Shown piece by piece: positions 18,809 through 42,010 of a stretch of DNA of 64,000 nucleotides. Under the pieces are notes generated by a model. The model was not told the origin of the DNA, made no database searches, and was given only the letters and a program-made list of their open reading frames with translations. Every line of letters begins with the position of its first letter. Within the stretch, counting starts at the first letter, position 1. This DNA is from Actinomycetes bacterium (GTDB taxonomy: Bacteria > Actinomycetota > Acidimicrobiia > Acidimicrobiales > Acidimicrobiaceae), in NCBI GenBank assembly GCA_021819205.1, contig JAKARV010000007.1, positions 1-64,000 of the forward strand, read 5' to 3'. A program made the translations under genes and the position numbers.

Positions 18809-20623
18809 CTAATCGGCCACCCGTCTCTGCTTGGATCTGGCAGACGACGCGAGTACCACCTTGCGCACCCGGACGCTCGTGGGGGTCACCTCCACGCACT
18901 CATCGTCGGAGATGAACTCGAGCGCTGATTCGAGCGTCAGCGGGATCGGCGGGGTTAGGCGAACCAGCTCCTCAGCCGTCGATGACCGCATGTTGGTAAG
19001 CTTTTTCTCCTTGGTGGGGTTCACATCCATGTCCTGGGGTCGGGAGTTGATTCCAATCACCATGCCCTCGTACACCTCGTCTTGAGGGACGCTGAAAAGC
19101 GAGGCGCGTTCCTGGAGGTTCAGCAGTGCGTAGGTGGTGGCTACGCCGGTGCGGTCTGCCACCAGGGATCCTTGCGACCTTGGCTTGATCTCCCCTTCTA
19201 GCGGCGCCCACTTTTCAAAGGTGTGGTGGATGATGGCGGTTCCTCGGGTTGCCGATAGCAGATCACCGCGGATTCCCAGCAGGCCCCGCGAAGGGATCAG
19301 GTAAGTTGCCCTCATCCACCCCGACGGCATCTGAATCATGTTGCTTAGGGTTGCCCGTCTGACCGAAATGATCTGGGTAAGCGAGCCGAAGTACTCCTCG
19401 GGAACGTCGATCTCGAGGAGTTCGTATGGCTCCAATTGTTGTCCATCAACGGTTCTTATCAGTGCTTTTGGCTTGGAGATCGTCAATTCGAAGCCTTCAC
19501 GCCGCATCGTCTCGATCAGGACGGCAAGGGCCAGTTCTCCACGCCCCTGAACTTCGAAGGTATCGGTCCGATCGGTGGGAAGCACCCGGATGGCCACGTT
19601 TCCGATGATCTCTTGGGCAAGTCGCTGGGATATCAGCCGCGCGGTGAGCTTCTTCCCGTCTCGCCCGGCGAGCGGAGAGGTGTTAACCCCCAGCGTCATC
19701 GAGATCGCCGGCTCCTCTACCGTGAGTGGCGGTAGTGCGGTGGGGTCGGCCGGGTCCGAGAGGGTCTCGCCGATGTTGATGTCCTCGAAGCCGGCGACGA
19801 TCGCTATCTCCCCGGCATCGACCGCATCGACCGCCTCCCGATCGAGGTAATGGGTCACGAAGAGCTCTCCGAGCTTGCTCCGGGTCACGGTGCCGTCGTT
19901 CGCGATCCGCGATACCGGCTGACCGCGGAGGAGGCGGCCCGATAGGACCCGGCAGATGGCGAGCCTCCCAAGGTATGGAGATGCATCGAGGTTGGTAACC
20001 TGTGCCTTAAGCATCGATTCCGAGTTGGCGTCCGGCGGTGGGATGTGCTTGAGGATGGCCTCGAAGAGCGGATGGAGATCGGTGGAGCCGATCGGGAGTT
20101 CGTTGTCTGCGATACCGGCCTTTGCGGAGGCGTAGATGATCGGGAAGTCGATCTGGCTTTCAGTCGCTCCTAGCTCGATAAAGAGGTCGAGAACTTCGTC
20201 GATCACCTCGCTTGGCCGGGCATCCGACCGATCCACCTTGTTGATGACCACGATTATCGGGAGCTTGCGCTCCAGCGCCTTGCGGAGAACGAACCGCGTT
20301 TGGGGTAGGGGGCCCTCGGCGGCGTCAACCAAGAGAAGGATCCCGTCGACCATGAAGAGCGCCCGCTCTACCTCTCCACCGAAGTCGGCGTGGCCCGGCG
20401 TATCGACCAGGTTTATCTTGACGCCTTCGTAGAATACCGAGGTGTTCTTCGCGAGGATGGTGATCCCTTTTTCGCGTTCGAGGTCGAGGGAGTCCATCAC
20501 CCGGTCGGCGACCTCCTGGTTGTCCCGGAAGGCTCCCGACTGGCGGAGCAGCTTGTCCACCAGGGTCGTTTTCCCATGGTCGACGTGGGCCACGATGGCA
20601 ACGTTTCGAATTTGGCTGGTCAG
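18809..20623 (-). CDS. typA: Ribosome-associated GTPase BipA/TypA, probable CTG start
   Basis: A 604-residue translational GTPase. G1 is AHVDHGKTT close to the N-terminus, the switch region is EREKGITI, G3 is DTPGHADFGGEVER and G4 is VINKVDR; the EF-G-like domains and BipA C-terminal domain follow (GRGELALAVLIETMRREGFELTISKP; MNMRSSTAEELVRLTPP-like end). BipA assists 50S assembly and stress or cold adaptation. The conserved protein begins TSQIRNVAIVAHVDHGKTT, and the codon before it is CTG at 20623, with GAGGAG (20629-20634) 5 bp upstream. The only ATG, at 20719, would add 32 low-complexity residues and has no good ribosome-binding site. I infer initiation at CTG. Confidence 0.85.
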   Translation of the reverse strand: MTSQIRNVAIVAHVDHGKTTLVDKLLRQSGAFRDNQEVADRVMDSLDLEREKGITILAKNTSVFYEGVKINLVDTPGHADFGGEVERALFMVDGILLLVDAAEGPLPQTRFVLRKALERKLPIIVVINKVDRSDARPSEVIDEVLDLFIELGATESQIDFPIIYASAKAGIADNELPIGSTDLHPLFEAILKHIPPPDANSESMLKAQVTNLDASPYLGRLAICRVLSGRLLRGQPVSRIANDGTVTRSKLGELFVTHYLDREAVDAVDAGEIAIVAGFEDINIGETLSDPADPTALPPLTVEEPAISMTLGVNTSPLAGRDGKKLTARLISQRLAQEIIGNVAIRVLPTDRTDTFEVQGRGELALAVLIETMRREGFELTISKPKALIRTVDGQQLEPYELLEIDVPEEYFGSLTQIISVRRATLSNMIQMPSGWMRATYLIPSRGLLGIRGDLLSATRGTAIIHHTFEKWAPLEGEIKPRSQGSLVADRTGVATTYALLNLQERASLFSVPQDEVYEGMVIGINSRPQDMDVNPTKEKKLTNMRSSTAEELVRLTPPIPLTLESALEFISDDECVEVTPTSVRVRKVVLASSARSKQRRVAD

Positions 20624-20736
20624 GGGTACTCCTCGGGAATCTAGGGGCGGGCCGCACTTGCAACCATGGCTGCCGCCGCTGGCGGCCACGCCGACGGCAG
20701 CCGCTGCTTGCCGCTCCATCGAATTGACTATGCAGT
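20624..20736 (-). other. bipA leader region
   Basis: Untranslated if bipA starts at CTG 20623; otherwise it would encode a 32-residue extension rich in Ala, Gly and Cys from the ATG at 20719. No -10/-35 pair is obvious. Confidence 0.35.
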
Positions 20737-21372
20737 CTAGCCGGGAGGCTCGGGGTTCTGTCCGGGCTGATCGCCACCGGTATGCCGATGCTCGTCGAGT
20801 TCGCGCTGCACTTCAGCCCAGGTCATCGGCTCCGGATCTTCGCCAGCGGCCTCGCGGTTGCTCGCCTTCACCAAGATCCGCACCGCAGCCGTCCAGGGGA
20901 CCCCCAGGCTGAGCAGCTTGGAGACAACACCGGCAACTTGCTGGTCGGCGATGGCGGAGACCCCGAAAAGCAGGTGTACGTTTTGGGCAAAGCCCGGATA
21001 GAAGGCGTGGTGAGCGAAGATGAGCACGATTGCAGGGACCGATGGCACGAGGCTTTGTGCTATCAGGTAACCGACCCTTCCCCCAGTCGAGAGCCTCCGT
21101 GTACCCGGGAGCAGGTGCAGGGCCGGAAGCCAAAAGGATTATTCCCGCGACCACAAGGAGGAGTTGCAGATCGAGGAGGGCGATGGTCGAGTGTGCTTGA
21201 GCGGCAACGATGGGCGGGAGCATCGCTCCGATCATCAGGGTTGCGTATGCAACGATGGCCAAGAGAGGCCGGGCAGCCAAGCCGGAAATGGCGTCGATTG
21301 CCCGGAGGCGAAGCAGGCGCTCGTATCGTTCGGGAGAAAAGCTCGCGAGGAGGAGCGGAACCGCTCCCAATA
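20737..21372 (-). pseudogene. Truncated, frameshifted CtaG-like cytochrome oxidase assembly factor
   Basis: Two overlapping minus-strand frames together encode the C-terminal about two thirds of a caa3-type CtaG membrane protein. One frame (upstream) gives LLASFSPERYERLLRLR, LLAIVAYATLMIGAMLPP and LQLLLVVAGIILLASGPAPAPG; the other continues with LSTGGRVGYLIAQSLVPSVPAIVLIF, FYPGF and the typical SAIADQQVAGVVS, ending at 20737. The switch is near 21090-21103, consistent with a single-base frameshift. The N-terminal helices are missing: homology stops exactly at a large palindrome at 21373-21416. CtaG helps copper insertion into oxidase; this copy is unlikely to be functional unless the frameshift is a sequencing error. 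Confidence 0.6.
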
Positions 21373-21416
21373 CGTTGACATCCTCCCCGCCCGCAAGGGC
21401 GGGGAGGATGTCAACG
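21373..21416. repeat. Perfect 20-bp inverted repeat with GCAA loop
   Basis: The left arm is CGTTGACATCCTCCCCGCCC (21373-21392), the loop GCAA (21393-21396) and the right arm its exact reverse complement (21397-21416). The TTGACATCCTCCCCGCC sequence resembles subterminal palindromes of IS200/IS605-family elements, so it may be an orphan element end or palindrome-type MITE. It sits at the broken 5' edge of the ctaG-like remnant. There is no T-tract, which argues against a simple terminator. Confidence 0.75.
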
Positions 21417-21600
21417 CTCCCGCTACCGGAGAAGGCTGGATCCAACTGCTGAGCCGGCGATAAGGGCGATCATTTACCTTTGCCAGCTTACCGAGGAGTG
21501 GAGCGCTAGTTGGTGCTTGGCACCGGCTGGCGGCCGCGGTATGGTGATGGTCAAAGGTCCTTGGTGATCCTGGCTGCCGAAATGGTCTAGGGGGAGGGCG

Positions 21601-23529
21601 ATGGCCGCTGACGAGAGCCTGGAGAGGCTGATAAACGTCTTCGAGATCCTGGTCAACACTGACCACCCCCTTACCCATGATGAGATTCTCGACAGCGTGC
21701 CGGGTTTTCCCCAGGGGCGCGATGCCAGGCTGCGGGCGTTTGAGCGGGTCAAATTTTCACTTCGCGATTTGGGTATTCCGGTGGAAGTGGTTACTCTTCC
21801 CGGCCGATCGGTGGTCGGTTACCGGATCCGGAAGGAGGAGGTCGAGCTCGAGTTCGACCTGACCGTGGAGGAGGCGGCCGCGCTTGAAAGCGCGCTCGGG
21901 TGTGCCAGCTTTGCCGATGGATCGGGTACGGTTTTGAACAGCCGCTTTGGCATTCTTTACCGGCATGCAGCCCCAATAATCTGGCAGGTTTCCGACCTTT
22001 CTCGCGTTCCTGACGCCGTTACCGATTGCCTCAGGCGTTCGCAGGAGATATCTTTCGTCTACCGGGGCACACCGCGAAAGGCGCGCCCTCTGGGTCTTCT
22101 CTCTCGGTGGGGGCGGGTGTACCTCGTTGCCGAGACCCCGTCGGGCGACCTTCGAAGCTATCGTGCCGACCGGCTGTCGGAGCCGATTACAGCCGGCCCG
22201 GTTTTCGAGCGCCCCAGCGGGCGCGATTTGGAGTCGGCGCTCCCTCCTCACCCGTGGCTCCTGGAGGTGGACGATCGGATTGAGATCGAACTCGCCGGTC
22301 CCAAGGCGGCACTCGCCGCCTTGGGAGCTCGAGATCTCACGACGCTTGGGGACCGCACAACCGGGACGATAGTTACCACCAATGTCGATCTGGTAATTGC
22401 CGATCTGATTAGCTACGGAGGCGAGGTTATTCCAATCGCGCCGCCCGAAATCAGGGCGAGGATGCGATCTGCGGTAGAGAGCGCCCTTTCCGATCTCGAT
22501 GCCCGCTGGTCGGTGGGCGGCGAGAGGCGGGCCTTTTTGAAGCCGAAACGGAGGCAGCAGAGCATCCAGGAGCGGTTTGCGACCGTCTCTAACCTGCTGG
22601 CCTTCCTTAGGAGCCGGGGGAACAGCGCCCGGCTAACGGAGGTCGCCGGTGCGCTCGGTGTCCCGGTGGAGAGTGTCGCCAGCCTGCTGGAGACGGTGTC
22701 GCTCTGCGGTGTCCCTCCGTACAGTCCGGACGTTCTGCTTGAAGTCGTCGTCGATCGGGAGGAGGACTACGTCGAGGTAAGTTTGGAGACCCCGCTTGCC
22801 AAGCCGAAAATGGTCGGCCCCATCGAGGCGATGATAACGCTTGCTACTCTCGAGGCGGTGGTGGCCGCGGCCGGCGAAGACCTGTTGCCCGAGGACCTCG
22901 ACCGCCTCCGCTCGGCTAGGGAGAAGATCGCAACAGCGCTCTCCAGGCGGATTCTTGATTCACTGGTGTACTTGGACGATCTCGACCTCCCCCCGGAGGT
23001 CGGAGCCTTGCGCAGCGCGATCGAAACCGGAGGGTGCGTGGAGTTCCAGTACGCATCTCCCTACTCCGCGATCGGTCCGCGTCACGTGGTACCGCTGCAG
23101 ATCTTCTTTCTTTCCGGCTTGTGGTACCTCTATGCCGCGGGTGACGGCGGACCCAGGAGATATCGGCTCGACCGGATCTCGCAGATCTGCTCCGTTCCGT
23201 TTGATGGCTGCATTGCGGAGCGGGAGCGCCGCTTGGCCCTTTCCGAGCTCCACCGGGAGGATTTGCTCGCGCTCGAGGACGGGATCTGGATGGAGGTGCG
23301 GGCGGAGCCCGCTGCCGAAGTGGTTCTCGACTACCTGGCGCGAGGTAACTTGGAGGTGATCTCCGATGGCCGGTTCAACGTGGTCGCCCACTCCGACGCT
23401 TGGGCCGCAAGCCTTGTCCTCGCCCTCGGGAGGCTTGCATCGGGTGAAGTGAGCGCAGCCGCCTTGGAGATAGCCCGGGCTATGGGCACGGCCATCGCCG
23501 GCGCGCTGTCGGATCAGGGCCGGGCATAG
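21601..23529 (+). CDS. pafBC: Fused PafB-PafC WYL-domain DNA-damage regulator
   Basis: A 642-residue protein made of two PafB/PafC-type units. The first starts ERLINVFEILVNTDHPLTHDEIL with the ERVKFSLRDLGIPVE segment of PafB, then a WYL domain (VYRGTPRKARPLGLLSRWGRVYLVAE..RSYRADRL). The second has its helix-turn-helix around AFLRSRGNSARLTEVAGALGVPVESVASLLE and another WYL domain (VEFQYAS..RHVVPLQIFFLSGLWYLYA..RRYRLDRI). PafBC is the LexA-independent activator of DNA-damage genes in actinobacteria; separate genes in mycobacteria, one fused chain in some lineages. GGGGGAGGG precedes the ATG. The mutasome cassette it might control lies about 14 kb away. Confidence 0.85.
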   Translation: MAADESLERLINVFEILVNTDHPLTHDEILDSVPGFPQGRDARLRAFERVKFSLRDLGIPVEVVTLPGRSVVGYRIRKEEVELEFDLTVEEAAALESALGCASFADGSGTVLNSRFGILYRHAAPIIWQVSDLSRVPDAVTDCLRRSQEISFVYRGTPRKARPLGLLSRWGRVYLVAETPSGDLRSYRADRLSEPITAGPVFERPSGRDLESALPPHPWLLEVDDRIEIELAGPKAALAALGARDLTTLGDRTTGTIVTTNVDLVIADLISYGGEVIPIAPPEIRARMRSAVESALSDLDARWSVGGERRAFLKPKRRQQSIQERFATVSNLLAFLRSRGNSARLTEVAGALGVPVESVASLLETVSLCGVPPYSPDVLLEVVVDREEDYVEVSLETPLAKPKMVGPIEAMITLATLEAVVAAAGEDLLPEDLDRLRSAREKIATALSRRILDSLVYLDDLDLPPEVGALRSAIETGGCVEFQYASPYSAIGPRHVVPLQIFFLSGLWYLYAAGDGGPRRYRLDRISQICSVPFDGCIAERERRLALSELHREDLLALEDGIWMEVRAEPAAEVVLDYLARGNLEVISDGRFNVVAHSDAWAASLVLALGRLASGEVSAAALEIARAMGTAIAGALSDQGRA

Positions 23530-41422: not shown

Positions 41423-42010
41423 TTATCCCGCGCTTGACGATCTCAAGATCCGTCCGCGATGCTCGATGGAGATCTCGAGGACCGGCCTGCCAAAGACGGT
41501 TCCCTCCAGGGATCCGTCCCACGTTATGCCGGTAGGCGAGACGATGGCGTCGATGCCTCCGGCGTAAAGGATGCTCCTCCGGCGGGTGTCTCCACCCCGG
41601 TCTACCACCACCAACGCGGTCTTGCGCTCACGAGCCTTGGCGGCGACGCGCCGCCAAGGCTGGCCGATCGCCTGCATGGGCAGGAGGATGACATCGAAGC
41701 CGTCCATGGCGATCATGGCTGCCCGCGCGGTTTCGGAGATGGGTACGTCGATACTGGCGAGATGCCCGAGATCCCAGCCGGCGTCTGCCAGCGCGCCGAC
41801 CCCGAGGTCAGGCATGGAGAGGACGGCTATGTTGAGTCCGGATTTGGAGGCCTCGGCGAGCAACTCGACGGTTGCCATGTAGACGCCACTCCCGATTGGC
41901 CCGCTCACCAGCGTTGTCGTTCCAATCGCTATCCCTCCTCTGGGAAGGAGGGATAGGAACGGATCTCGCGTTGGGAGGGTCGGTGGTTCCAGGGGAGAGA
42001 TAGCGAACAT
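41423..42010 (-). CDS. imuA': ImuA-prime, RecA-like mutasome subunit
   Basis: A 195-residue reduced RecA-fold protein, as in mycobacterial ImuA'. The former P-loop region reads GGIAIGTTTLVSGPIGSGVYMATVELLAEA, so the GK(S/T) is absent and ATP hydrolysis is unlikely. The hydrophobic strands NIAVLSMPDL and FDVILLPM follow. It is the first gene of imuA'-imuB-dnaE2. The ATG at 42010 lies inside a LexA-like palindrome, and a TATTAT -10 is 7 bp upstream, so the mRNA is probably leaderless. Confidence 0.8.
   Translation of the reverse strand: MFAISPLEPPTLPTRDPFLSLLPRGGIAIGTTTLVSGPIGSGVYMATVELLAEASKSGLNIAVLSMPDLGVGALADAGWDLGHLASIDVPISETARAAMIAMDGFDVILLPMQAIGQPWRRVAAKARERKTALVVVDRGGDTRRRSILYAGGIDAIVSPTGITWDGSLEGTVFGRPVLEISIEHRGRILRSSSAG

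Follow-up and report, generated by a model that had tools for sequence, protein, structure and literature searches.

A perfect palindrome in a broken ctaG gene as a possible deletion scar of two mirrored TnpB-element right ends

A perfect palindrome with a 20-bp stem and a 4-nt loop lies between the two remnants of a broken ctaG gene in a 64,000-nucleotide stretch of DNA from an Actinomycetes bacterium, the whole of which is called here the window. Sequence comparison identifies its arm, TTGACATCCTCCCCGCCC on one side and GGGCGGGGAGGATGTCAA on the other, as the right end (RE) of IS200/IS605-type TnpB elements. In our judgement there is about an even chance that the palindrome is a deletion scar of two such right ends, placed as mirror images of each other and sharing one hairpin, and a scar of this kind is probably without function now.

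Structure of the palindrome

The palindrome occupies positions 21373 to 21416 of the window, without an assigned strand, and was characterised by pairing, folding and stem count. Its sequence is CGTTGACATCCTCCCCGCCC GCAA GGGCGGGGAGGATGTCAACG, where the arms (21373-21392 and 21397-21416) are complementary at 20 of 20 positions and the loop reads GCAA on the plus strand and TTGC on the minus strand, which confirms the 44-bp perfect palindrome that had been described originally. Its folding energy is -28.9 kcal/mol as DNA (z -9.4) and -45.7 kcal/mol as RNA (z -9.5), and none of 200 shuffles equalled either value. About 2e-6 such stems would be expected in the window from base composition, and this one is by far the longest perfect stem there; the second-longest, at 41633-41661, has 13 bp and a 3-nt loop. 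The core of the structure is a 40-bp unit of the form TTGAC...GTCAA at 21375-21414, the outermost CG/CG pair of the stem being an extension that is absent from other copies. In a scan of all 64 contigs of its own genome (2.13 Mb), the full palindrome appeared a single time, and the other matches to its arm are TnpB right ends, which argues against the REP-like repeat that the original prediction had entertained.

The arms are right ends of TnpB elements

Elsewhere in the genome, the 18-base arm has one exact match, on contig C61, and two matches with one mismatch, on C22 and C55, all three of them downstream of a match to the C-terminal part of TnpB and with the orientation and spacing that a right end should have. 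Four places in the genome match TnpB, three of them over the Pfam cut-off, and a right end stopping at TCAA is found downstream of three of the four; the TnpB gene on C61 is intact (407 aa), and those on C22 and C55 are fragments. The terminus of the element was set at GATGTCAA because two E. coli copies of TnpB that sit in different contexts are similar exactly up to that base. At 21375-21392 of the window, the minus strand reads GGGCGGGGAGGATGTCAA, ending in TCAA and matching the C61 right end exactly in its 3′ arm and terminus, and the same 18 bases, again ending in TCAA, are read on the plus strand at 21397-21414. Element termini thus fall at 21375 and 21414, within two bases of the palindrome edges on both sides. 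On C61 the right end has the sequence GGGATTCCCCGTCC GTGA GGGCGGGGAGGATGTCAA. In the window, TTGACATCCTCCCCGCCC, the mirror copy of the 3′ side, stands in place of the 5′ side of this end (GGGATT plus CCCCGTCC); the unit is therefore composed of a right end, a shared hairpin and a right end. Both the resemblance of the arm to IS200/IS605 ends and the orphan palindromic element derived from IS605 that had been proposed are borne out by these right ends in the same genome.

The window unit shares with the other copies the hairpin followed by the terminus TCAA, which in those copies stands downstream of TnpB. A GGAAT-type foot before the hairpin is missing from it, and the mirrored ATCCT is found there instead. 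No TnpB match lies within 3 kb of the palindrome and no remnant of a TnpB body at its site, nor is there any TnpB or TnpA beside it. A PF01797 search of the assembly, which is 92.6% complete, did not recover the IS200/IS605 Y1 TnpA for which a search had been suggested at the outset. Matches to TnpA are present in 22 of the 42 genomes of the family, the sister species included.

The broken ctaG gene

In the sister genome (G001), ctaG is an open frame with a Pfam Caa3_CtaG match of 2.1e-24, and this genome has no palindrome at ctaG and none with these ends anywhere. In the window, the gene is represented on the minus strand by a C-terminal remnant with a broken frame (20737-21372), which aligns with the sister gene with indels, and by an N-terminal remnant (21417-21473, start codon read at 21473), which aligns with the start of that gene. 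The CtaG-like reading shifts between the open reading frames 20813-21445 and 20737-21048, and the longest one at the locus has no Pfam match. CtaG homology had been said to stop exactly at the palindrome, and this is true of the left edge; past the right edge it resumes after a missing stretch. Between about 130 and 195 bp of ctaG are missing exactly at the palindrome in a comparison with this one relative, which is about 77% identical, and the size of the gap varies with the alignment: around 170 bp between the two blast blocks, up to around 195 bp with a separate alignment of each flank, and around 130 bp if one pairs the final bases ahead of the palindrome by eye with a later stretch of the sister sequence. 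With the intact gene of the relative free of the palindrome, the idea of a palindrome shared with an intact ctaG, which was to speak against a mobile-element origin, finds no support in this comparison.

Recurrence of the 40-bp unit in unrelated DNA

The palindrome with exact ends was found in four stretches of the genome collection, from Xenorhabdus, Klebsiella, Corynebacterium and Enterobacter, and in two viral contigs, and a looser pattern matched 25 viral stretches against none for the reversed control pattern. The genome studied here and those four genomes carry a single copy each (5 of 5). With at least 80% of the palindrome covered, blastn found a place in 56 of the 5426 E. coli genomes and in 1079 of the 72,556 plasmid records, and the exact copies on the enterobacterial plasmids examined represent one locus, upstream of fecI. 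Within the order of the organism, the exact unit is present in one of 397 genomes, its own; the looser pattern occurs in 2 of the 60 relatives (G027 is the second), and another (G017) has a variant palindrome with a shorter terminus. The flanks of the copies show no common target, and related TnpB was seen at only two loci in viral contigs.

A clean empty site was found neither at the window nor at the Xenorhabdus or fec loci, and 151 Corynebacterium genomes offered nothing usable as one. Compared with a Xenorhabdus relative that lacks the palindrome, homology ends 113 bases before it and starts again 2 bases after it, which places this copy at a homology break. One plasmid (L196) that looked like an unoccupied counterpart of the fec copy in Klebsiella was rejected as such, since its 46-bp deletion also removes flank. 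The empty-site comparison for prophages of E. coli and for P1-like plasmids found the sequence past the palindrome to be variable. The palindrome of four of these prophages (L062, L069, L071 and L072, at about 2501 or 3301) follows a LexA-like repressor gene and is the point after which the cargo genes vary, one example of such cargo being an Eco57I-type methylase with a BsuBI/PstI-type nuclease. In the Klebsiella phage KpLi5 (L066, 1501-1534), a right-end-type motif lies on the opposite strand, 2 bases from the 3′ end of an annotated repressor that adjoins a RelE/ParE-like toxin gene; this motif may be the edge of a gene cassette.

A discrete class of mirror palindromes

A pattern for the right-end hairpin that leaves the left arm free gave 109 matches in 95 viral stretches. 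The ten bases before the hairpin were then compared with the mirror image of the terminus: 12 of these matches, at 7 places, scored 8-10 of 10 (most places being counted twice, because they are palindromic), and the remaining 97 scored 4 or less. Since scores are either 8-10 or at most 4, mirror palindromes form a discrete class. The GGAAT foot is present in 66 of the 109 matches, and TnpB lies directly upstream in 51. Of the 109, 17 (L111, L115, L117, L134, L141, L143, L145, L147, L156, L166, L167, L169, L173, L174, L177, L186 and L079) look like 'terminal-only' elements without TnpB, made of a left end and a right end: the tetramer T(T/G)A(C/T), then a short spacer, a foot of AAAR or CAAG, the hairpin and the terminus AGGATGTCAA. 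By their layout they look like the terminal-only PATEs, that is, PATE-like remnants in phage DNA, and constitute a class separate from the mirror palindromes. Gifsy-1 (L068, about 250-300) has another long palindrome, GCCTCCTTTCCTCCCCGGCC TGAA and its mirror, just upstream of its TnpB gene, and its outer arms are unlike those of the TTGACATCCT class.

An alignment of 18 distinct solo palindromes was used to look at stem pairing, leaving out duplicates, L085 (which is a single base away from L076), L102 and L187 for their different left arm, L082 and L094 for their AT-richness, and L088, L091 and L092 for their shortness. Standard pairs fill 95.7% of the pair cells, the outer ten bases being fixed partly by the search pattern. 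Fourteen cells are changed on both sides, a number reached by none of 500 shuffles and compared with 1-8 in slid controls. Pairs with a double change number 3, which is not above shuffles (353 of 500 reach 3), and the compensatory signal is therefore confined to few positions. These changes may equally reflect different parent elements. Six of the 18 copies keep the T-G mismatch that is typical of the hairpin of the element itself.

Origin of the palindrome

A deletion between two right ends, the reading to which we give roughly even weight, would start with two TnpB elements or remnants that had entered ctaG in opposite orientations, their right ends pointing outward. The hairpin of the right end, being itself palindromic, would amount to a direct repeat shared by the two inverted ends, and a deletion between the hairpins, by slippage or recombination, would have removed both element bodies together with the 130-195 bp of ctaG between them, leaving a right end, a single hairpin and a right end. 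From such an arrangement it follows that host DNA between the insertion points would be lost, as in ctaG. A joint near the foot of the hairpin also predicts the T-G mismatch kept in six of the 18 copies. A plausible intermediate is a 698-bp unit in another locus (L172, 1407-2104), whose two right ends face outward and which also contains two divergent, truncated remnants of the TnpB C-terminus. At the left junction of the fec locus, Klebsiella plasmids have a solo palindrome, and the E. coli plasmid pRHB22-C09_2 a right end with a TnpB-like remnant, the decayed TnpB tail having been read by eye. The missing piece of ctaG and the 698-bp unit both agree with the deletion, and no before-and-after pair was found. 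Among the fetched loci, that unit is the only one in which element sequence still separates two outward-facing right ends, and the proposed precursor therefore looks rarer than the product. A fusion of a left end with a right end was also considered for the window unit and rejected: in related elements, the hairpin of the left end is of a similar kind but is preceded by a four-base target and roughly 12-16 nt, and these left ends start with other bases than ATCCT.

The scarcity of precursors with two right ends would fit a course in which a single right end, exposed at its terminus, folded on its hairpin, lost its unpaired foot by trimming and had its TTGACATCCT overhang copied by a polymerase, before joining to other DNA left the scar. 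Such fold-back copying would account with one element for the perfect symmetry and for a precise terminus on either side, and it fits the complete pairing of the window copy as well as joins to other DNA, seen as homology breaks at ctaG and in Xenorhabdus. However, copying would have erased both the G-T pair, kept at the element's own position in 6 of 18 copies, and the element's own 5′ arm CCCCGTCC, which is kept in L079, and we regard this origin as unlikely. Unlikely, too, is a minimal non-autonomous element, a PATE or REPIN cut down to one hairpin, for which a Y1 transposase of the IS200/IS605 type would act in trans. The same 40-bp unit in distant hosts, phages and plasmids, with compensatory stem changes, and the TnpA matches in about half of the family genomes (22 of 42) would suit such mobility, as would the 52-bp terminal-only elements, perhaps mobilised, reported in PMC3119063. 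Nevertheless, there is only one copy in each of five genomes, no TnpA in the assembly itself, no common target in the flanks and, in the window unit, no GGAAT foot of the kind seen in 66 of 109 right-end matches, and the surroundings at ctaG and in Xenorhabdus resemble deletion joints and not clean insertions.

The very high stability of the hairpin, the conserved stem pairing across copies and the E. coli prophage copy just past a LexA-like gene could also be taken for a bidirectional terminator or regulatory hairpin under selection. This we hold to be very improbable, given the exact transposon termini in unrelated contexts, the lack of the palindrome in the sister species, the lack of any Rfam match in the window and, as regards the conserved terminator that had been raised as an objection, the lack of a T-run after the stem and of any terminator-like match in 20600-21700.

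Relation to known remnants

The terminal-only PATEs of Haloquadratum walsbyi are described in PMC3119063 as 52-bp products of a repeat-mediated deletion of the core of IS605-type elements, alongside divergent remnants of transposase genes with only C-terminal parts left. Like the window unit, they are IS605-type remnants reduced to fused termini with one near-terminal palindrome; unlike it, they join a left end and a right end around that palindrome in an asymmetric 52 bp, whereas both termini of the symmetric 40-bp window unit are right ends. Compared with an IS200/IS605 right end with TnpB, the window unit has the identical 18-base 3′ arm and TCAA terminus, but a mirrored 5′ arm, no GGAAT/GGATT foot and no TnpB, and with neither tnpA nor tnpB of its own it is not an insertion sequence of this family. 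REP and REPIN sequences (PMC3116915) are likewise short hairpins in inverted arrangement related to Y1-type transposases, but the window unit is single-copy and carries TnpB-element termini, the search for a RAYT partner having covered PF01797. The PATE-like sequence of Halanaerobium hydrogeniformans (PMC7290912) is also an ends-only IS605 sequence in a bacterium, but has 271 nt with a left end, a tnpB tail and a right end, unlike the window unit. No description of a symmetric unit of two right ends was found in a search of open-licence papers. Its parts, the IS200/IS605 right end and PATE-type remnants, were already known.

Implications

More speculatively, the symmetric palindrome could be a recurrent product of TnpB elements in actinobacterial, enterobacterial and phage DNA, in which termini become perfectly mirrored hairpins linked to distant DNA; each 40-mer would then mark a past rearrangement provoked by TnpA or TnpB, or might even be a one-hairpin element mobile in trans; we consider this broad view rather improbable. 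If the deletion reading is right, it would raise the question of whether cutting by TnpA or TnpB-guided cutting helps to make these palindromes, and would add a symmetric type with two right ends to the terminal-only PATEs made of a left end and a right end. The 40-bp palindromes would then be recognisable fossils of TnpB elements at deletion joints and could help to reconstruct the past of plasmids, prophages and small genomes.
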